Positions 5,994 through 32,831 of a stretch of 32,831 nucleotides of DNA are shown piece by piece. Under the pieces are notes generated by a model. The model saw only the letters and a program-made list of their open reading frames with translations. It had not been told where the DNA came from and made no database searches. Position 1 is the first letter of the stretch. The number at the start of each line of letters is the position of its first letter. The translations under genes were made by a program, and so were the position numbers. The stretch spans positions 1 through 32,831 of IMG/VR virus record IMGVR_UViG_3300045431_000463. One strand, given 5' to 3'. The DNA is from a virus.

Positions 5994-8900
5994 TTAAGTT
6001 GAAATGCTAAGTATTTGTTGCTGAATGGAACGCATTTCATTGAGCACAGACAACATTTCATATTGTTGCCTCATTGATGTTTCTTGAAAATGATACTGAT
6101 CTTGCATGGTACGTGTCAAATCAACAACATTAGTATCCTTGGTCATTGTTGTAGCTGACATCAGGTCACTGACGGTTTTACCCAATTGAGCACTTATTTC
6201 GGCTACTGCTTTTTCCGAACCATTGATTGCAGAATTAGTAATTTCGCTCATGACGTTGCGAAAATCGTCCAAAAAATTCTGTTGATCAATTGAGGATTTT
6301 GCTGTCGGCATACTTACTTGCGAAAGCTCTCTATTCATTGATGCAGTTTTTAACATATTGATAATATTAGTAGTTTCGCTCATGACGTTGCGAAAATCGT
6401 CCAAAAAATTCTGTTGATCAATTGAGGATACTGCTACCGGCATACTTATTTGCAAAAAATCTCTATTCATTAATGCAGTTAACATATTTTCTACATTGCC
6501 AATTTGTGTGTTTCTTGGTATTTCAAGACCAATAATTAAATTACTGAGATTGTTTACAAATCTAGTTAAACTAATAGCAAATTCTTCCAATGTATTTGTA
6601 AATGTCCGACTGAATTGCATGATTGGATCAAACTTGATGCTATCAGCAAATTTTTCTAAGGTATTAGCAAATGTCTGACTATTAACTGAACGCTGCATGT
6701 CATACATGAATGATGTCAGAGAATTACTTGTGCCCCTAAGTAAATCTATGAATGTGTTAGTAGGTACAATAGATCCATCTTTTTCAAAAATTCTAAGTTC
6801 CGGGCCTTGTTCACCAACTATATAAGGGATATTTTTATTAATTGGGCCACCACTGGCACGTTTTTCAGTGTCTTGAAAAAACGCATCATAGATTTTTTCA
6901 CCTATATAATCACCCAATAAATATCCAGCACCACCAGTAATTACTGATCCTATACCTCCACCCAAGAGTGCTCCAACGGATCCAAGTGCGGCTCCGGTTA
7001 CTTTCTTTACCGCTGTTTTGGTAACAGTGCTACCAGCTTCCTTTACCAGTCCTTGGCCCAATTTACTACCAACACCAGCCCCGACAACTCCTCCAACAGT
7101 ACCCCCAACACCGGCTCCGACAACTCCTCCAACAGTACCAGCTGTATCTTTAGTCATTGTTAGGTTTGTTAATTTTTCAAGAATTTTATCAAAATTATTA
7201 AATAAACCTCCAAGTACTTCATTTACTCTTTCTAAAACATTGCTAATAGTACCGCCAACACCTTTAATATCCAAAGAATCGGCTAATTTTTTAAGCCCAT
7301 CGGCAATTGTATTAACATTATCAGTTAATGCTTGAGCAAATTCATGCATAAGTTTTGAAATTTTTTCTTCAACTAATACTCTGAGTTCTTGTGCTCGTTG
7401 TTGAATTGTAACCAAAGCATTGGTCAATGGATCTGTATCGGCTGCTTGTCCACCTTTATCAAGATTAGCCAATGCGGCTTTTACACCATCCTTGGTATAT
7501 TTGGATACAGTTTCCAACATGCCTAGTGATAGTCTCGCTATCTCAGCTAAAACTTGATTATCGGGTCTAGCAAAAGCTGCTGTTGCTAGAGATTCTTGTT
7601 TCTGCAAACCTTGACGTATAGTGTCAGAATTTTCACCCAGATATTCGACTACCTCCTTAACACTGATATTACCAGTTCTAGCACCCTCTGCTAACATTTC
7701 AGCCAGACGTTTTATTTCAGGGCTGATATTAGCAAAAGCTGCCAGTGCAGGTGTAATTATAGTTCCTGTATTGGCTATTTCAACTGCCATCTTACGAGCA
7801 GCTTCGGGGGCGGTTTTAAAGGCCTGGTCAACCTGGTCTCGCTGGGCTTGTCCTAGTTTGTTCAATTGTTGTTGAAAACGAAAATTCAGCAGATCTTGAC
7901 GAGCTGCTTCCATTTTCTTTCTAGCATCTTCGCCGGTGATAGAAGAGATCAAGCGTAAGTTTTGAGCGTATTTTTCAGTTTGAACAGCAACTTCTCTGTC
8001 GCTGGCTTTGAGCGGCCCGGCCAAACCGGCCATTCTACTCATTGTTTCTGCTACTAATCCTGCCTGTTCTTCTACATTGTAACCCAAGGACATCAGTCGA
8101 CGCTGCATTTCTATACCGCCTTGAGCCAATGATTTACTTAATTTACGAGATCCTTCAGTGACACCCAATCCAGCTGATGCTATATTTTGACTATTTTCGC
8201 TCACTACTCGAGAAAATTGTTCCAAAGTAAGTCCACCTTCATGTGCTGTGTTTAACATATCTCCAAGCCCACCAGCAAAAACAGCACCTGCACGATTGAG
8301 TGTATTAAATGATCTGGCATAGGTTTCAATCTGTTGAAAAATTATTTCAACTGCCTGACTTGCTACAGAACCTATTATCCCAATTACACTACCAAATAAT
8401 TTGCCTAATCCTTCCGTCAAAGAGCCTAAAACTTTACCAAATCGCGGGAACATAATACTTACTAAATTACCTATTACACCGCCTAAATTGCCAAACATTT
8501 GTCCTGCAGCTCCAGCGACACCAGTTAAAATTTTTATGCTAGACGAAAACAAATTCGAAAACAATCTAGTATCGCTACTATTTTGAATTAGATTGTTAAT
8601 AATATCTTTAGATGTTCCAATTAAACTATTTGCGAATTGAGTTCCTGTAGATACTAGATTCCGGGCAAAAGTTGCACTGGCACGCTTAGTATATTCCCAA
8701 CCCACAGCCATTTCAAGATCACGTTTTTTAGCATTGAGTAGTCTGCGTTCTTCAGCATTTTCGGTATTACCAATGGCTTTTTGTAAATCATTAAGAGTAG
8801 AAGAAACATCCTTATACTGTAAAGAATTATCTTTAATAATATCCGACAACCTAGCTGCTGCTTCGGAATTATTCTTCAAAGATGATTTAAATTTATCTAG

Positions 8901-9017
8901 ATCTTTGAGTAAGGAACGTAAACGGTCACGATCCGATTGCGAGTCGTTTTGTGTGACATTGCCAGCTATACCTTGCGCAATGCTTTGCGTTAAACGATCA
9001 TAATCAATTTCTGCCAT
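5994..9017 (-). CDS. Tail tape-measure-like protein
   Basis: A tape measure sets tail length by spanning the tail tube lumen. The 1007 residues fit: charged helical N-terminus (1-120), Gly-rich hydrophobic segment (about 160-225), long helical middle, second Gly/Val/Ala-rich hydrophobic segment (about 625-715), and near residue 740 the motif YIVGEQGPELRIFE followed by GSIVPTN, seen in many tape measures. The C-terminal third contains duplicated blocks (NTLEKFADSI/NTLEEFAISL and the segment ending DDFRNVMSE). T4 gp29 has 590 residues. It lies directly before the portal gene, where T4 has the tail sheath and tube genes, and head to head with gp26. No ribosome site precedes the ATG. Confidence 0.82.
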   Translation of the reverse strand: MAEIDYDRLTQSIAQGIAGNVTQNDSQSDRDRLRSLLKDLDKFKSSLKNNSEAAARLSDIIKDNSLQYKDVSSTLNDLQKAIGNTENAEERRLLNAKKRDLEMAVGWEYTKRASATFARNLVSTGTQFANSLIGTSKDIINNLIQNSSDTRLFSNLFSSSIKILTGVAGAAGQMFGNLGGVIGNLVSIMFPRFGKVLGSLTEGLGKLFGSVIGIIGSVASQAVEIIFQQIETYARSFNTLNRAGAVFAGGLGDMLNTAHEGGLTLEQFSRVVSENSQNIASAGLGVTEGSRKLSKSLAQGGIEMQRRLMSLGYNVEEQAGLVAETMSRMAGLAGPLKASDREVAVQTEKYAQNLRLISSITGEDARKKMEAARQDLLNFRFQQQLNKLGQAQRDQVDQAFKTAPEAARKMAVEIANTGTIITPALAAFANISPEIKRLAEMLAEGARTGNISVKEVVEYLGENSDTIRQGLQKQESLATAAFARPDNQVLAEIARLSLGMLETVSKYTKDGVKAALANLDKGGQAADTDPLTNALVTIQQRAQELRVLVEEKISKLMHEFAQALTDNVNTIADGLKKLADSLDIKGVGGTISNVLERVNEVLGGLFNNFDKILEKLTNLTMTKDTAGTVGGVVGAGVGGTVGGVVGAGVGSKLGQGLVKEAGSTVTKTAVKKVTGAALGSVGALLGGGIGSVITGGAGYLLGDYIGEKIYDAFFQDTEKRASGGPINKNIPYIVGEQGPELRIFEKDGSIVPTNTFIDLLRGTSNSLTSFMYDMQRSVNSQTFANTLEKFADSIKFDPIMQFSRTFTNTLEEFAISLTRFVNNLSNLIIGLEIPRNTQIGNVENMLTALMNRDFLQISMPVAVSSIDQQNFLDDFRNVMSETTNIINMLKTASMNRELSQVSMPTAKSSIDQQNFLDDFRNVMSEITNSAINGSEKAVAEISAQLGKTVSDLMSATTMTKDTNVVDLTRTMQDQYHFQETSMRQQYEMLSVLNEMRSIQQQILSIST
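6242..6429. repeat. 132-bp direct duplication inside the tape-measure gene
   Basis: A 56-base segment occurs identically at 6242-6297 and 6374-6429, with similar flanks, giving a 132-base (44-codon) period. It encodes two copies of a block containing SIDQQNFLDDFRNVMSE. Exact DNA identity inside otherwise diverged copies points to recent duplication or gene conversion. Confidence 0.85.
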
Positions 9018-9072: not shown

Positions 9073-9918
9073 ATGGAACAGCTACCTTTTAATCCCTTGA
9101 GTCGTTATTTTCGCCAACCTGTTATCTACTTAAAATTGCCCAGTGATGGGAAATGGTGGTCTCCAGAATCTTTAGATATTCCTGAAAATAGAGAGTTACC
9201 CATTTATCCTATGACTGCACGCGATGAAATCATATTAAAAACTCCAGATGCTCTCATGAATGGTCAAGGTATGGTCGATGTAATACAAAGTTGTATCCCA
9301 AATATCAAAAATGCCTGGTCATGTCCTAGTGTTGATTTAGATGCTATTTTAATTGCTATACGTTTGGCTACTTACGGTAATAATATGGATTTTGAAAGTA
9401 AATGTACTAACTGTGGTACTAAAAATCTACATGGTATCAATCTCAACGAATCGTTGGCTTCTATAAAATGCCCAGATTTTAGTAACCATGCACGGTATAA
9501 AGATCTTAAAATACAATTAAAACCACAAAATTATAAACAAATTAGCGGGGCAGGACAGATTACTTACGAAGAACAACGTATTAATAGCACTTTAATTGAT
9601 CAAAATCTTCCAAATGCAGAAAAAAATAGTATACTTACAGAAAGTATAAAACGTTTAATAGATTTAGGCATTCAGGCCTGTAGCAATAGCACAGAATATA
9701 TAGAAGTAAATGGTCAACAAGTAACGAATCGTGAATTCATTGATCAATTTTATAAAAATGCCGAAGCAGAAGTAATTAAATCACTACAGACCAAAATTAA
9801 AGAAATTGCAGAGCGTAATGTTATGCCACCATTTAGTCTTAAATGTGAAAACTGTCATACTGTTTATGAAGCAGAATTAAACTTTGACTACTCAAGTTTT
9901 TTCGCGCAAGGCTTTTAA
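9073..9918 (+). CDS. 26: Baseplate hub assembly protein, T4 gp26-like
   Basis: In T4, gp26 helps assemble the baseplate hub around the tape measure. The 281-residue protein begins with the family pattern PLSRYFRQPVIYLKLPSDGKWW (residues 8-29), followed by LPIYPMTARDEIILKTPDAL. Two CxxC pairs (C111/C114 and C258/C261) should form a zinc ribbon. It lies head to head with the tape-measure gene. The last codons, Ser-Phe-Phe, lie on a -1 slippery heptamer (9897-9903), so part of the ribosomes probably continue into the next frame and make a fusion of about 354 residues. The ribosome site is modest (ATGGA, about ten bases before the ATG). Confidence 0.87.
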   Translation: MEQLPFNPLSRYFRQPVIYLKLPSDGKWWSPESLDIPENRELPIYPMTARDEIILKTPDALMNGQGMVDVIQSCIPNIKNAWSCPSVDLDAILIAIRLATYGNNMDFESKCTNCGTKNLHGINLNESLASIKCPDFSNHARYKDLKIQLKPQNYKQISGAGQITYEEQRINSTLIDQNLPNAEKNSILTESIKRLIDLGIQACSNSTEYIEVNGQQVTNREFIDQFYKNAEAEVIKSLQTKIKEIAERNVMPPFSLKCENCHTVYEAELNFDYSSFFAQGF

Positions 9919-10136
9919 CCTTCAAAACCGAAGCAGAGATCATAGCATTTTTAAATAACTATGATCAAGAGATAAAAGCCTTTAAAGAAGAACTGCTGCG
10001 TATATGTTGGTTTATGCGGGGAGGAATTACATACAACGAAATCATGCAAATGAGTATAACTGAAAGAGAAATTATTGCTAATATTATTAAAAGCAATTTA
10101 GAAATTACCAAAGAATCTAAAATTCCATTTTTTTAA
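9888..10136 (+). CDS. Frameshift-reached extension of gp26, in the gp51 position
   Basis: This frame is open from 9888 to the TAA at 10134-10136 but has no ATG, GTG or TTG before an internal Met codon deep in the conserved part. Its product, from about FKTEAEIIAFLNNYDQEI, continues with ICWFMRGGITYNEIMQMSI and ends with a short acidic/basic helix and IPFF. It reads as genuine protein and, from memory, resembles small proteins after gp26 in T4-like marine phages; T4 has gene 51, another hub assembly factor, here. The only way in without a rare start codon is a -1 slip at 9897-9903, giving a gp26 fusion. An unusual start codon is the alternative. Confidence 0.72.
   Translation, partial: LLKFFRARLLTFKTEAEIIAFLNNYDQEIKAFKEELLRICWFMRGGITYNEIMQMSITEREIIANIIKSNLEITKESKIPFF
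9897..9903 (+). promoter_or_regulatory. -1 ribosomal frameshift site T TTT TTC
   Basis: In the gp26 frame the bases read T TTT TTC, a perfect X XXY YYZ heptamer. It lies inside the only 28-base window where a slip could work, between the upstream stop of the -1 frame (9885-9887) and the gp26 stop (9916-9918). Seven bases downstream a weak 5-bp stem (9911-9915 with 9930-9934) is possible. No strong pseudoknot is apparent. Confidence 0.65.
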
Positions 10137-10153
10137 GATTTGCTCTGCAAATC
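10137..10153 (+). repeat. Perfect 7-bp hairpin directly after the gp26/gp51 unit
   Basis: GATTTGC pairs with GCAAATC around a TCT loop, starting on the base after the stop codon. Its 5' arm can instead pair over nine bases with 10241-10249, so it may belong to an alternative fold together with the downstream hairpins. Confidence 0.6.
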
Positions 10154-10154
10154 T

Positions 10155-10187
10155 ATTTCTTTCGCTTGCGCTCAGAAATTTTTTTTA
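10155..10187 (+). terminator. Terminator of the gp26/gp51 transcript
   Basis: ATTTCT (10155-10160) pairs with AGAAAT (10174-10179) over an inner part that can form a small CG-closed loop, followed by a run of eight T (10179-10186). Orientation and T-run fit rightward termination. Leftward there is no T-run, so it should not stop the nuclease transcript. Confidence 0.65.
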
Positions 10188-10224
10188 TTTTCTTTAGTTT
10201 AAATATTCATCCAGATAATTCAGT

Positions 10225-10526
10225 CATAATTTGCCCGTTTAGAGCAAATTATGCCTGGTGCATTCATCCGAGTGCATCAGTCACTGATCTGGTAGAGCCG
10301 ATATTATGTCGGGAGGCGGTTGACCTGTACCCCCACGCTCTAGCCTTTGCATGTCAACGGAACCTTCATTGCACCGATCAGCAGCACAAATCAAGCCTAC
10401 GGTTGTATCTTTTTCACAGAGCCGTAATCATTTGAGACCTAAAGTTGGTTTCTATTCTTGCAATGCTCAAGATCCGACGGTAAATTAATACAGTCTCAAT
10501 GAGAGTCGAGCAGCCCCGACCAAACA
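10225..10526 (+). ncRNA. Candidate structured non-coding RNA
   Basis: About 300 bases without a convincing protein, visibly richer in GC than the surrounding genes and full of pairings. Hairpins: 10225-10234/10244-10253 (10 bp); 10255-10265/10270-10280 (11 bp, ATCC loop); 10398-10403/10421-10426; 10434-10439/10447-10452; 10457-10460/10468-10471; 10505-10508/10517-10520. An outer helix 10284-10289/10376-10381 encloses an adjacent helix 10291-10298/10337-10345 (one bulged G). GTTGAC (10319-10324) inside it can pair with GTCAAC (10353-10358) as a pseudoknot. Several stems need G-U pairs that exist only on the + strand, which sets the orientation. The promoter is unclear (TTTAAATA at 10198-10205 is a weak late-type match). 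I recognise no known RNA family. Confidence 0.42.
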
Positions 10527-10546
10527 CTATTGCATGTTAACGGCAC
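10347..10546. repeat. 17-base imperfect direct repeats bounding part of the RNA-like region
   Basis: TTGCATGTcAACGGaAC at 10347-10363 recurs as TTGCATGTtAACGGcAC at 10530-10546 (15 of 17 identical). The second copy overlaps the stop codon of the nuclease gene. The repeat could mark an insertion or deletion boundary, or a shared RNA element. Confidence 0.5.
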
Positions 10547-25558: not shown

Positions 25559-28500
25559 ATGGCTGTAAATCGAAAAACAATTAATTTTCTTCCCGAAATA
25601 TTTAGAACTGATACCAATAAAAAGTTTTTAGGCAGCACCCTTGATCAATTAATCAGCGAACCCGAATTAAAAAAAATTAATGGTTTTGTTGGACGTAAAT
25701 TTAGTCCTTCTTTAAGGTCGGATGTTGGTTTCATTATAGAAAGCACAAAGCAACGTCAAGATTATCAACTTGAACCCACTGTGATAATCAAAGATAGTCA
25801 AGATAATATCGACACGGTTATTTCGTACGCTGATATTATAAACAAATTAAAATTTTATGGTGCAGTTACCAATGATCACAATAGACTATTTAATTCCGAA
25901 TACTATAATTTTGATCCGCACATAGATCTTGATAAATTTGTAAACTATAGTAATTACCATTGGAACAAGTTGGCATTTTTACCAACTATACAAATTAACT
26001 CGTTTAAACCAATTCAAACATCTAACATTGATTTATCTCGAAATGGTAATGTATATACTAGTAATGTATCTCCAAACAGTAATCCGCCGTTGTATCTCGC
26101 CAGGGGTAAAACATATACATTAAGCATTACTCACGCTGTTGGTCAAGGCAATTTATGGTTACAGACCGAACCATCCCTGACAGGGACAGTAATTTACAAT
26201 ACCAATCTGTCGGTAAGAAATATTTTTGGTGTAGCTAACAATGGAGTGTCCGTTGGCAATATAACTATTACAGTTCCCAATGGTCTAATAGATCAATCAG
26301 ATTATCTATCATATCCATTTACTGCTGTTGATCTAGCAGTTACTCAGACATTTACCATTTCAGATAATGCTGCTTATACCACTGGCTATTATCCTGATAA
26401 TAAACTAGTTATCTTTGTAAATTCTACTACGATATCATCAAATTGGGTAGATAGAACCGGCACAATTTTATCCAATGACCAACGTTACGGTGTGTGGTTG
26501 AGTCGTGTGGTCGATGACGGAACTACCATACCTAAAATACAATATACTTTTGTAAGAAATTTATCCGCCAACACTCGCATTAAAATTGACTCGGGTATTA
26601 ATCAAGGGCAAGAATATTTACGAACCGCCAATGGTTTTGTTACTGGTACCAGTATTACTTCTCCATTGAGAAAAATATACTATCAAAATGATCAAACTGA
26701 CATTAGAGGTGAAATATTTTTTGTACCTGATATTAAAGGTATACATGTAATCAATGATATCATTGGTGAATTATCATATACCAGTCCATCGGGGGTAGAA
26801 TTTCTCAATGGCATGAAAATTACGTTTGATAGTTATGTTGAACCCGAGCAATACAAGAATAAATCTTTTTATATTGAAGGCGTAGGAAAAGGAATACGTT
26901 TAATTCCCGAAAATATTATGGAAATAGAATTCCAGCATCAACCTGTGGATTCTGACAATGTAATTTTTGCACCAGAAGATTACATTACAATTAATCGAGC
27001 CAGTAGAGATTTAAATAAGTGGTCAAGAACTAATCGTTGGATCCATAATAGTGTGGTTGAAAGAATCAAGCGGGAATATCCCAATTTGGTTACCAGTGAC
27101 ACCATTGAAAACCTTTTCTTTCCTAGAGCTCGAAGGCCAATCATTGAGTTTGAACCCGACCTTCAATTATTATATCATGGTCGAGGTTTCTATACCACTG
27201 TGAATCATTTTTTCAGTGAAGATATTTTTTTATTGATTGGCGGAAAATTGATTCCAATGGTACAAGCATTTGTTCAAATACAAGGTCTTTCATATTATGA
27301 ACTAAACACCATGCTGCCTGATTATAATATCAGACCGGGTCACACTGTGATTTTTCAGGCCGACGAAAACAACACTATCAGAAAGAAAATTTATAGGTTT
27401 GATTATCAAAATCAAACAGGTGTTACTACATTCAGGGCTACCGTTGTTGGTACAGTCACTGGATATAAGGATTCGCGGCAATTATTAGGACTTGATAGTT
27501 CAAATAATTTAAATGTGACTACATTTGGTACTGATGTTGTAATTGGTGATAGTATATTTTTAAATGATGGCACACTATTAGGCACTGTCATTGATATATT
27601 AAGTGCAAACGTTCTAACTTTAGATCAACCACTCAAGGCGTCAATCAATGGTTTGAATAATCTTAAAGTAAATAATGGTTTAATAGATTTAGTTCAAATT
27701 GACACAGTTAATGCATATCAAAGTGTATTTGTTACAGGTGGTTCTAATTTCAAAGGTATAAATGCTGGTCAAGATTTTTATCTGGATAGATTTTTTAAAA
27801 TTGATCCAGCTACAAATCAAGTTGAAATTATTTATGATTGGGTAAAGACTCAAAATAAAACTATGCCGAATCAAGAGCCATTGTTTGATATTATTTTAGA
27901 TAATGATGCAACGTTTTTAGGAAGTACATCATTCACTATACAAAATGTTTCATTGAGCACTCGTATATTTGATATCGATGGCGTGATATCAACCAATCAA
28001 AATAAAACTTATTCTGAAAGTACTTTTTCTGGTACTAAGATATTTTCTTATGTACATGGTAGCAATACTTCCGATAAAGTACTAGGATTCCCTTTAAGTT
28101 ATAACATAGCAGCAGATTTTGTGGGCGACATTAATTTTATCAATAATTACGATACAGATACTTTTGTTTACAAAACTTTTATCAATGGTAATCAAACTTT
28201 GATAACTGAAAAAATTAACACAGGATTTTTACGTAAAAATACTGGATTTGGTGACACTGATTGTGTTAAATTAAACGTATGGTCCGCAGTTGGACACAAC
28301 GAATCTAAACCTTTAACGGGCACTCGTGTTTCAAACACAGTGAGCACAACAGCCGTAGCCAAACTTTTAGAAAACGAAATTACTGTTATTTACAATGTTT
28401 ACCTTGGTCGTTATCCAACACAGAACGAACTAGATCAAGCCGTATTGACCAATCTCGTAAGCTACAATAATAGTGGAACTTATGCGCTAGCAGTGCTAGA

Positions 28501-31500
28501 AAGTACAATTAAAAATAGTATTGAAGCTAAATCCTATAATCCTTATGATTACGTTTTAGATTATACTAATCAGCTACAACATCGAAGTTATGTTTATGAT
28601 GGGTATACAAGTTATTTTGAATTAGAAACAAAACCTTTCCAAGAATCTTTATTATCTGACGTAGAACCTAAAATAAAAGTTTTTATTAACAATAAGTATG
28701 TGACAACTAGAAGTCCTGGTGCTGTAATTTGGAGATATCAAAAATTTGGTGAAAGACACACCATTGTTATTGATCCAATATATCTTGAAACAGGCGATAG
28801 AATTGATATACTTTTTTCGGGACCCACAGACAGCGGTGCCTATTACCAAATTCCGCAAAATTTAGAATTTAACTACGACAATCAAGATGTGACATATTTA
28901 ACACATGGTCAGATGCGCGGACACTATGAAAGAGTGGCTCAAAATATAAGAGCGCTGTTGGGAGACCCATTAGGAAAAAATAATCTTCATAAATTTGATA
29001 GTAACAATCGTGGGGGCACTATATTACAACACAGCGCGCCACTGACCTATTGTGCGGCATTTTTGGTTGACGAACAAGCTAATTTAATGAGTAGTATTGA
29101 CTACGCTCGTAAAGAATATACACGATTTAAAAATAAATTATTAGAAATAGTAATCAATGACATTGATGCCAGTGTAGATAATGTTCCGGCAACGCTGGAT
29201 AGGACAATAAAGATTATTAACAAAAATAAAAATCCAAACGATTTTGGATTTTATTATAGCGACATGTTGGCTCATGGCCCCATTGGGGATCAATTGATCC
29301 TCACAGTATTAAATCCAGCTATCACTGATTATGACCTATCGACATTAACCAGTCTGACCAATAATTTATTTCGTACCGGTTTGGTATATCTTAATACCAT
29401 ACTACTGTATAACATTAACGATTATATAATTAATAACAACATGATCTTAGTGTTAAAGCCACATGTTAATTTAGCAGTCAATGATAAAATCATAGTGAGA
29501 CTTTACCAAGACACAATAGGTAGTTATATTCCTGAAACACCTACCAAGTTGGGAATGTATCCAAAATATCAACCAGCTATGATTATCGATGATACTCAGG
29601 GTATTGGTGGAGGTTATGTAATACAAGGACATGATGGTAGTCTGACACCTGCATTCAATGACATTCGTGATCATGTATTATTAGAGTTTGAAAAACGAAT
29701 TTATAATAATATTCAAGTTGAATATGATTCTAAAATTTTTAATATACATAGTATAGTTCCAGGATATTTTAGGAAAACTGAATATACTCTTACGGAATAT
29801 AATCAAGTAGTTAATGCAGAATTTTTAAAGTGGATTGGTGTTAACCATCTTAGTTATACCGTCAATGATGAATATGATAAAGATAATTCTTTAACTTTTA
29901 ATTATAGTCGTTCTCGAAATAGTCAAGGCGATAACCTACCGGGACACTGGCGAGGCATCTTTAAATTCTACTACGACACTGATCGTCCTCATACACATCC
30001 ATGGGAGATGTTAGGACACACCATTAAACCACTGTGGTGGGATTCTAAATACAGTTGGACTGAACTTACTAAACGTGCAAATCTTATAAACAGTATATCC
30101 AAAGGAATAGTTGGAGATCCTTCTGTTGATAGCACATCAATGGCTTGTTTCCAGAGACCGGGGTTCGAAAAATTAGTTCCTGTAGATTTAAGTGGTAATA
30201 TCATAAGTCCCAATGATCTGATGGTTACAGAATTTGATTCCACTTCTTTTAATAGAAATTTTGTAATAGGCGATCATGGTCCTTCTGAAACTGCTTGGCG
30301 TCGTAACAGTGAATTTTGTTATGCTTTGATACGTGCAATGGCATTGCTGAAGCCTGCTAGCTTTTTTGCATATAATATTGATCTCTATCGTTACAGGCGA
30401 ATTATCGTTGGTGATTTTGCTCAATTTTCTTATATTTCCGGGCGTCGCCCGGCCATGCGCGAGTTTCAAATCAATGGTGAAATCGTCAATGGCAAAATTA
30501 CAATTGCAGCAGGATATTTAAATTGGATACATGCTTATCTAGTTAATCTTGGCATAGATCCAATTAAAAAGTTAAGAAATATATTGGATCGTACTCAAGT
30601 TAATTTAGTTCACAAACTGGGCGGATTCAGCGACAAAAAATATCTCAACGTGTTTGCTGAACAGTTTGCTCCAACCAGTGTTGCTGAATCTGTGTTGATT
30701 CCAGATGAAAACTTTAATATACATTTACACAAAAGTGTTCCAGTGGACCGTGCTGTGTACAGTGCAGTGATCATTGAACGTAGTAGCGATGGTTTTACTG
30801 TGACAGGTTATGATCAGCGTTATCCGTATTTTACTATTATTCCTAGCGAAACGACAGGAAAAAATTATACCATAGAAGTATTAGATAAACGTGCCACTGT
30901 ATTTACAGAATTCAGGTCTGAAAAAATCATAATTCCTTATAGCTACGAGTTTAGAGATTATCAGCAAGTGGTTGATTTTCTAGTAGGATATCAACGTTAC
31001 TTGGTTGCACAAGGATTTGTATTTGATATCTATGATAAAATATTAGCAGTTGTACGAGATTGGGTACTAAGTGCCAAAGAATTTTTAACTTGGTGTGCAC
31101 AAGGATGGAAAACTGGAAATATTCTTATACTAAGTCCGGTTATAGATCGTATAAACATTCAAACTCAAAAAAACTATGTAGATGAGATAACCAATCAGCT
31201 TTATCAAAGTAGACTGTTGGGGGCCAATTTTAACAACATTAAATCCAATGACTTTACTGTATTGCGCGATGATCAACGTACTACTATTGCAACTGTAAGC
31301 GGGCAGACTATTGCTTTGATAGATGTTAACTTTGTAGAGTTTGAACATGTATTGATTTTTGATAATAAAACCATATTTGGGGACACCATTTACAATCCTG
31401 TTTTAGGCAATAGACAGTATAAAATGCGTCTAACAGGTAGTAAAACTGACAACTGGGACGGTACATTAACACCACTGGGATTCGTTTACACTTCTTCTGC

Positions 31501-32831
31501 TGCCGATATGTGGGTGGTCAACAAAATTTATAGTAAGGGCGATATCGTAATTTACAAAAATAAACTTTACACTGCAATTCAAAAAATTGATCCAACAGAA
31601 ATTTTTAATTTGAATTACTGGAAAGAATTAGATACCATTGTAGAATCCGGTATCGTTCCCAACTTTGCACAATTGGCATCTAGAGGAAAAGACATCTATG
31701 ACGTTGATGCTTTGCCATTGGATGAAGAATTTATCAAATTCAGCAATAGTTTGATAGGATATCGCAGCAGAAGTAATTTAACTGATCTTGGACTTAACGA
31801 AACCAGTCAAATTAAATTTTATCAAGGATATATTAAAGACAAAGGCACCTATAATGCCATAGATGGACTAGTTAGAGGTAACTTTGACAATATAGACAAT
31901 GACATTGAGATTTACGAGGAATGGGGAGCTAGAATAGGTGTGTTTGGGGGAATTGATGCAAATCCAGAAATAACCTTCCCATTGCCCGAGTCGATTATCA
32001 AACGTAACCCAATAATTATTGAATTTTTAGATTTTGGTAAAAAACCAGATTATCAAGAAATTACTGCAATTTATCCCAATCAATTCTATACTAGACCTTA
32101 CGATTATGATAATAAGATTTTTTTAAATCGAAATGAACAAAATATAAATGCTGCTCAAGATAAAAATCGTCTCGTTAAAATTGAAATTTTTGGCGATGGT
32201 ATCATGTGCGGGCAAAAACCCAGTGCGCTAGTGGCATATACAATCAGTGCAGTAGAAAATTTTAACTACAGTGTAAAAATTGTAGGTGCAAGTTCTTACA
32301 TGACGCGTGCCAAAAACGAAAATAATGCACTGATTTTTGATTCAACCACAATAGGTAATAAGCTGGTTTTTGAAATTGGGTCTTTACTGGATAACGAAGA
32401 AATACAGTATGAAATTGTTTCTGCTGATGGCAGCGAAAGGCAATTAAGCGTAAGTTCATTGGTTGATGAACAACTTGATACATTATTCGCTGGTCAACCT
32501 TTTAAAATTGTGGCCACGTCGGCATTGCCAGTCGAACAATTATCAATGGTAATAGAAGTGCCACAGCCCACAGATGCACTTATGACTGATACAGTTTATT
32601 CAAAATTGGTCACAAAAATTGAGGCAACAATTAACAACACTGAAAAACGTATACTAAAATTTTTGATCACTGGTATAGAAATCACTGAAATATTGTATTA
32701 TACTATCGAAGATGCCGGAGATCCTGATGTTCCATTGAGCTCAACCTATGTTGATCTTGGCACTGCCTGTAGTCCTGCCTCACGGTTATTAGACAATAAT
32801 GACGGGTTACCTGTCAACAGTTTGAGCAAAA
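25559..32831 (+). CDS. Giant baseplate/virion structural protein in the gp7 position, right end cut off
   Basis: The frame is open without a stop from the ATG at 25559 to the window edge, at least 2424 codons. It begins AVNRKTINFLPEIFRTDTNK. Conserved-looking segments include NYSNYHWNKLAFLP, RGKTYTLSI, FGVANNGVSVGNI, GTILQHSAP, TPTKLGMYPKYQPAMIIDDT, GHWRGIFKFYYDTDRPHTHP, GDHGPSETAWRR and IKFYQGYIKDKGTYNAI. These match my memory of the giant structural protein that follows gp6 in T4-like marine phages. T4 gene 7 (wedge initiator, 1032 residues) occupies this position, but I cannot show homology. It starts 27 bases after gp6; TATAAAG at 25536-25542 may be promoter-related. Confidence 0.85.
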   Translation, partial: MAVNRKTINFLPEIFRTDTNKKFLGSTLDQLISEPELKKINGFVGRKFSPSLRSDVGFIIESTKQRQDYQLEPTVIIKDSQDNIDTVISYADIINKLKFYGAVTNDHNRLFNSEYYNFDPHIDLDKFVNYSNYHWNKLAFLPTIQINSFKPIQTSNIDLSRNGNVYTSNVSPNSNPPLYLARGKTYTLSITHAVGQGNLWLQTEPSLTGTVIYNTNLSVRNIFGVANNGVSVGNITITVPNGLIDQSDYLSYPFTAVDLAVTQTFTISDNAAYTTGYYPDNKLVIFVNSTTISSNWVDRTGTILSNDQRYGVWLSRVVDDGTTIPKIQYTFVRNLSANTRIKIDSGINQGQEYLRTANGFVTGTSITSPLRKIYYQNDQTDIRGEIFFVPDIKGIHVINDIIGELSYTSPSGVEFLNGMKITFDSYVEPEQYKNKSFYIEGVGKGIRLIPENIMEIEFQHQPVDSDNVIFAPEDYITINRASRDLNKWSRTNRWIHNSVVERIKREYPNLVTSDTIENLFFPRARRPIIEFEPDLQLLYHGRGFYTTVNHFFSEDIFLLIGGKLIPMVQAFVQIQGLSYYELNTMLPDYNIRPGHTVIFQADENNTIRKKIYRFDYQNQTGVTTFRATVVGTVTGYKDSRQLLGLDSSNNLNVTTFGTDVVIGDSIFLNDGTLLGTVIDILSANVLTLDQPLKASINGLNNLKVNNGLIDLVQIDTVNAYQSVFVTGGSNFKGINAGQDFYLDRFFKIDPATNQVEIIYDWVKTQNKTMPNQEPLFDIILDNDATFLGSTSFTIQNVSLSTRIFDIDGVISTNQNKTYSESTFSGTKIFSYVHGSNTSDKVLGFPLSYNIAADFVGDINFINNYDTDTFVYKTFINGNQTLITEKINTGFLRKNTGFGDTDCVKLNVWSAVGHNESKPLTGTRVSNTVSTTAVAKLLENEITVIYNVYLGRYPTQNELDQAVLTNLVSYNNSGTYALAVLESTIKNSIEAKSYNPYDYVLDYTNQLQHRSYVYDGYTSYFELETKPFQESLLSDVEPKIKVFINNKYVTTRSPGAVIWRYQKFGERHTIVIDPIYLETGDRIDILFSGPTDSGAYYQIPQNLEFNYDNQDVTYLTHGQMRGHYERVAQNIRALLGDPLGKNNLHKFDSNNRGGTILQHSAPLTYCAAFLVDEQANLMSSIDYARKEYTRFKNKLLEIVINDIDASVDNVPATLDRTIKIINKNKNPNDFGFYYSDMLAHGPIGDQLILTVLNPAITDYDLSTLTSLTNNLFRTGLVYLNTILLYNINDYIINNNMILVLKPHVNLAVNDKIIVRLYQDTIGSYIPETPTKLGMYPKYQPAMIIDDTQGIGGGYVIQGHDGSLTPAFNDIRDHVLLEFEKRIYNNIQVEYDSKIFNIHSIVPGYFRKTEYTLTEYNQVVNAEFLKWIGVNHLSYTVNDEYDKDNSLTFNYSRSRNSQGDNLPGHWRGIFKFYYDTDRPHTHPWEMLGHTIKPLWWDSKYSWTELTKRANLINSISKGIVGDPSVDSTSMACFQRPGFEKLVPVDLSGNIISPNDLMVTEFDSTSFNRNFVIGDHGPSETAWRRNSEFCYALIRAMALLKPASFFAYNIDLYRYRRIIVGDFAQFSYISGRRPAMREFQINGEIVNGKITIAAGYLNWIHAYLVNLGIDPIKKLRNILDRTQVNLVHKLGGFSDKKYLNVFAEQFAPTSVAESVLIPDENFNIHLHKSVPVDRAVYSAVIIERSSDGFTVTGYDQRYPYFTIIPSETTGKNYTIEVLDKRATVFTEFRSEKIIIPYSYEFRDYQQVVDFLVGYQRYLVAQGFVFDIYDKILAVVRDWVLSAKEFLTWCAQGWKTGNILILSPVIDRINIQTQKNYVDEITNQLYQSRLLGANFNNIKSNDFTVLRDDQRTTIATVSGQTIALIDVNFVEFEHVLIFDNKTIFGDTIYNPVLGNRQYKMRLTGSKTDNWDGTLTPLGFVYTSSAADMWVVNKIYSKGDIVIYKNKLYTAIQKIDPTEIFNLNYWKELDTIVESGIVPNFAQLASRGKDIYDVDALPLDEEFIKFSNSLIGYRSRSNLTDLGLNETSQIKFYQGYIKDKGTYNAIDGLVRGNFDNIDNDIEIYEEWGARIGVFGGIDANPEITFPLPESIIKRNPIIIEFLDFGKKPDYQEITAIYPNQFYTRPYDYDNKIFLNRNEQNINAAQDKNRLVKIEIFGDGIMCGQKPSALVAYTISAVENFNYSVKIVGASSYMTRAKNENNALIFDSTTIGNKLVFEIGSLLDNEEIQYEIVSADGSERQLSVSSLVDEQLDTLFAGQPFKIVATSALPVEQLSMVIEVPQPTDALMTDTVYSKLVTKIEATINNTEKRILKFLITGIEITEILYYTIEDAGDPDVPLSSTYVDLGTACSPASRLLDNNDGLPVNSLSK

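Follow-up and report, generated by a model that had tools for sequence, protein, structure and literature searches.

A gp26-family gene and its overlapping -1 frame as a predicted lambda G/GT-type tail assembly chaperone pair in a virus with T4-type genes

The window (the whole stretch of DNA analysed here, 32,831 nucleotides of the virus record IMGVR_UViG_3300045431_000463) contains a gp26-family gene that is overlapped at its 3' end by a second, protein-like open frame, next to a divergently transcribed candidate tape measure gene. The features of this locus are the following:

5994-9017, minus strand: gene for a 1007-aa protein, probably the tail length tape measure (phrog_5062), the divergent neighbour of gp26.
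9073-9918, plus strand: gp26-family gene (281 aa, ATG start; PF12322, phrog_150), candidate short-form tail assembly chaperone (TAC-N, lambda G-like).
9888-9915, plus strand: 28-base overlap permitting a -1 slip, bounded by the -1 frame stop at 9885 and the 0-frame stop at 9916.
9897-9903, plus strand: slippery heptamer T TTT TTC, in which TTT and TTC are 0-frame codons of gp26.
9916-9918, plus strand: 0-frame stop codon TAA of the short form.
9903-10136, plus strand: extension in the -1 frame, a T-like domain that reaches 77 residues past Phe-Phe and gives a predicted 354-aa long form (TAC-NC, lambda GT-like).

A Pfam search with the gp26-family protein identifies PF12322, T4_baseplate, with a score of 59.9 bits (E 3.7e-16), membership in this family being defined here as a profile match above the curated cut-off of 24.5 bits; the best-matching PHROGs profile is phrog_150, baseplate hub (E 1e-18). 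No second copy of gp26 is found in the window, which is a fragment. The same phage carries genes for a T4-type capsid protein (gp23), protease and portal, for gp46/gp47-like SbcC/SbcD proteins and for a late sigma factor. Downstream of the baseplate genes, positions 25559-32830 are taken up by one open frame that spans at least 2424 codons and is cut off where the window ends. The product of the 5994-9017 gene matches the tail length tape measure profile phrog_5062 (E 2.4e-6), and the gene at the matching position in RaK2 is annotated as similar to tail tape measure protein; a tblastn search of phages with this product yields no match. The adjacency of the locus to a tape measure gene, proposed in the initial annotation, is supported, with the correction that the candidate adjoins gp26 on the opposite strand in the window; the two are collinear in Flavobacterium phage immuto. 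In S-H25 and immuto, gp26 is followed by a small frame and then by a large gene, which in immuto is annotated as tape measure. On the 3' side of the extension, about 400 bases (10137-10536) contain no convincing gene but include GC-rich hairpins (fold z -2.7), and five giant relatives (L016, L017, L018, L021 and L027) have an unannotated gap of 680-840 bases after the extension; an Rfam search gives no match in the window or the relatives.

The -1 frame is open from 9888, immediately after the stop codon TGA at 9885, to the stop codon TAA at 10134-10136. The coordinates confirm what had been noted from the letters alone, namely that this frame is -1 relative to gp26, that a perfect T TTT TTC heptamer lies in phase within the 28-base overlap, and that no usable ATG, GTG or TTG is present, the first such codon being an ATG at 10014, codon 43 of 82. 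The computed product of a slip on T TTT TTC contains Phe276-Phe277-Arg278 and is 354 residues long. In-phase TTTTTTN occurs 16 times in the 10,471 codons of the open reading frames of the window, so that the expectation is about 0.014 per 28-base window, and the chance that the -1 frame remains open is estimated by shuffling at about 4 in 10,000. Because the heptamer is conserved among the relatives, a chance origin is negligible.

The assignment of a frameshift architecture to the locus is based on this conservation. Searches with gp26 identify the in-phase T TTT TTC in every viral contig with a complete junction, and it is likewise present in all 80 cyanophage loci collected with the S-H25 gp26 and in 61 of 61 contigs of the window clade that were found using the extension; the extension-based set is slightly biased, as one of the six peptide patterns includes the junction, whereas the gp26-based sets are free of this bias. 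Of phages that are not of the T4 type, 21 GenBank records were examined, and the heptamer is found in 15 of them, namely Atu_ph07, Phosso, pEa_SNUABM_19, XbC2, GAP32, PA5oct, RaK2, 121Q, Vibrio 2.275.O, SCTP-2, Munch, S-H25, Vibrio K566, AS-yj and Ci1; two more have the variants T TTT TTT (RAS14) and T TTT TTG (RHph_I1_9), and four (immuto, Kuttervirus 241, Vibrio D510 and Cygsa01) differ at the junction. None of these 21 records annotates the locus as a joined gene. Past the heptamer, where this is T TTT TTC, the -1 frame reads FF, nearly always FFR, and then leucine (FFRxxLL), and encodes a domain of 60-80 residues.

Given that more than 150 loci share this arrangement, with identical phase and coding constraint, neither gene decay in the second frame nor a sequencing error at the break has more than a vanishingly small likelihood, even if the copy in the window lacks an early start codon; the relatives already refute such a reading. 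In particular, an error in the T-run, which the initial annotation had named as a potential source of an artefact, is excluded by the same heptamer and frame in relatives with 41-100% protein identity; the contig L001 encodes the same gp26 protein as the window, with DNA over the locus that is not identical.

Several loci depart from the common pattern. In Kuttervirus 241 (L178), Vibrio D510 (L180) and Cygsa01 (L185), an overlapping -1 frame follows ATT TTC or CTT TTC, with no standard heptamer. In immuto (L025:3638-3943), the frame that precedes the annotated tape measure gene is open in the +1 phase, overlaps the end of gp26 by about 80 bases and is possibly expressed by a +1 frameshift. In a 318-kb contig of the window clade (L088:1097-3246), gp26 is present twice in tandem, and both copies have a T TTT TTC in phase and a -1 extension of their own.

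The codon-level evidence comes from 168 collected genes with a Phe-Phe junction, a set that omits the four phages with a differing junction. The codon that precedes TTT ends in T in all 168 genes, the junction pair is TTT TTC in 166 of them, and the pattern NNT TTT TTC is found at none of the 154 other Phe-Phe pairs of the same genes; with the genes grouped into 40 clusters at 60% identity, the log10 P for this, given the amino acids, is about -37. The T-run is exactly six bases long at 167 of the 168 loci and never exceeds seven. A conserved T-run would also be expected if RNA polymerase gained or lost a U on it, producing a mixed mRNA pool, but transcriptional slippage is usually tied to runs longer than 6-7 bases, and a codon-phased heptamer is a requirement of tandem ribosomal slippage. 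Such an origin of the long form is therefore highly unlikely, and tandem -1 slippage of the ribosome, yielding a minor long chaperone, is the most likely mechanism as judged from these sequences.

Comparison of the extensions also reveals coding constraint on the -1 frame, in which the substitutions at codon positions 1, 2 and 3 number 264:233:459 in codons 3-12, 888:494:1500 in codons 13-40 and 1334:647:2663 from codon 41 to the end. This coding-type pattern implies that translation of the frame is already under way ahead of the earliest start codon available in the window, contrary to what is expected of two separate genes, the second of which would be initiated alone, either by coupling, from a start codon that overlaps the stop of gp26, or from a non-standard start. 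Such an arrangement might be suggested by the presence of an ATG that overlaps or adjoins the gp26 stop in Atu_ph07, Phosso, 121Q, XbC2, Vibrio D510 and Cygsa01, and by the annotated internal product 26' in T4 gene 26. However, the first ATG, GTG or TTG in the window is codon 43 of 82, PA5oct lacks any, and the heptamer stays in phase even in the relatives that possess the ATG, so that separate genes appear to be a quite improbable explanation of the locus. Across the relatives, a start codon within 10 codons of the slip site is present in 40 of the 131 distinct extensions (e.g., ATGA in Atu_ph07); hence, of the two features that the initial annotation expected to be shared, the in-phase heptamer is conserved, whereas the absence of a start is so only in part. 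In relatives with an ATG at the stop codon of gp26, e.g., Atu_ph07 and 121Q, separate initiation may yield free extension in addition to the predicted frameshift product. A search for a downstream stimulatory RNA structure detects none that is common to the relatives, among which the fold z ranges from +0.7 to -5.5; the values for three stretches of the window are -2.3, -3.9 and +0.7.

Profile comparison links the locus to two T4 genes. PF12322 matches both T4 gp26 and T4 gp51, covering residues 1-201 of the latter, so that the window gp26 is homologous to both by comparative sequence analysis. From about residue 200 onward, gp51 is homologous to the extensions of cyanophages and of the frameshifting Straboviridae (hhalign 96.9%, E 1.4e-10; phrog_634). 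The extension of the window clade shows a modest likeness to the gp51 C-terminus (hhalign 71.7%, E 3.5e-5) and is hardly alike to the cyanophage extension alone (2.8%); searched on its own, the window extension gives only weak matches in Pfam and PHROGs. The initial annotation regarded the extension as a protein in the position of gp51; it is better described as a probable counterpart of the C-terminal part of gp51 and not of gp51 itself, which consists of a whole gp26 paralogue plus that part. T4, phiAS4 and SJ_PmiM possess two PF12322 genes, gp26 and gp51, with no slip site, and T4 gp26 retains the Phe-Phe pair, encoded by TTC TTT, which is not slippery. In ten records of frameshifting phages, each with one PF12322 gene, neither gp51 nor any other second PF12322 gene is found. 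From its sequence, T4 gp51 reads as a fused long form, in which a gp26 paralogue and the C-terminal part meet where the slip site would lie. By profile comparison, T4 and the window share the gp26 family and probably a C-terminal domain of the same kind; both would combine a short with a long form, and they differ in that the long form of T4 is the product of a separate fused gene.

Taken together, these observations very strongly favour the view that the locus encodes the lambda G/GT-type tail assembly chaperone pair of a T4-like giant phage, whose long form arises when ribosomes shift by -1 on T TTT TTC, as the initial annotation had suggested for the frameshift and the G/GT arrangement; the comparative evidence lends strong support to that proposal. 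Like the locus as read here, lambda G/GT (as well as P2 E/E' and the equivalents in other long-tailed phages) combines a short protein with a rare long form, a -1 slip near the 3' end of the gene and an adjacent tape measure gene; the window differs in the slip sequence T TTT TTC, in the PF12322 protein, which has no fold match to solved structures, and in the opposite orientation of the tape measure candidate. A similar arrangement is described for the contractile-tailed Vandenendeviridae and Andersonviridae, in which a poly-T -1 slip site (GTTTTT) joins TAC-N and TAC-NC and the extension is usually mis-annotated as a separate hypothetical gene (PMC12846349); these are different phage families, and the comparison covers the arrangement of the genes.

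We infer the following course of events, including slippage itself and its efficiency, tape measure binding and tube recruitment. The majority of ribosomes would terminate at the gp26 stop, releasing the 281-aa short form, whereas a minority would slip back by one base at 9897-9903 and translate another 77 codons in the -1 frame, giving the 354-aa long form, whose C-terminal domain is predicted to be helical. If the pair works as lambda G/GT does, the tape measure protein would be coated by numerous short and a few long chaperones, tail-tube subunits would be brought in through the C-terminal domain, and both forms would then depart. In phage CBB, gp26 is annotated as 'structural protein', which fits poorly with a chaperone that departs from the tail.

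The G-T frameshift system has been described as widely conserved 'except T4' (PMC5009743). The initial annotation held T4 gp26/gp51 to be undescribed as chaperones, which is not the case: according to the citations in PMC10885494 and PMC12846349, Vladimirov, Gautam and Davidson (2022, Virology 566:9-15) identified the chaperone genes of T4-like phages and proposed a mechanism other than frameshifting. The PRFect paper (PMC10885494) cites this work for one short and one fused long gene, and PMC12846349 cites it for poly-T slip signals in the TAC-N genes of T4-like phages; going by the latter citation, such sites may already have been recorded for a number of these phages. From the distribution of slip sites and PF12322 genes, T4-type phages appear to have exchanged the frameshift for a gene duplication, with gp26 as the short form and gp51 as a hard-wired long form. 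We lean towards the stronger reading that in T4-related phages (comprising here the giant phages, cyanophages, and the Vibrio K566, Aeromonas AS-yj and Citrobacter Ci1 types) the ancestral route of chaperone production is a -1 frameshift on T TTT TTC and that gene 51 is its replacement by duplication, the frameshift product having been hard-wired at the old slip site. If so, the published attribution of a non-frameshift mechanism to T4-like phages would need revision. Much of the T4 superfamily would then be placed under the lambda/P2 mechanism of chaperone production, with T4 as an exception through gene duplication; this would account for the many cases in which a 'hypothetical protein' following gp26 is small or missing, and suggests a function for the database entries 'baseplate hub' and 'baseplate hub assembly catalyst'.

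The AlphaFold2 models of gp26 (pLDDT 88.3) and of the extension, which is predicted to be helical (mean pLDDT 87.8), give no Foldseek match to the PDB at E <= 0.001, and thus no fold-level link to solved tail chaperones. A PDB sequence search with the gp26 profile yields NAC-alpha at a marginal E of about 0.09, which is taken as chance. The gp26 model resembles many viral baseplate hub models in BFVD. It also shows fold similarity to larger uncharacterised proteins of the giant phages phiRSL1, RP12, Special G and Motura, which, to judge from the models, may be the tail chaperones of those phages.
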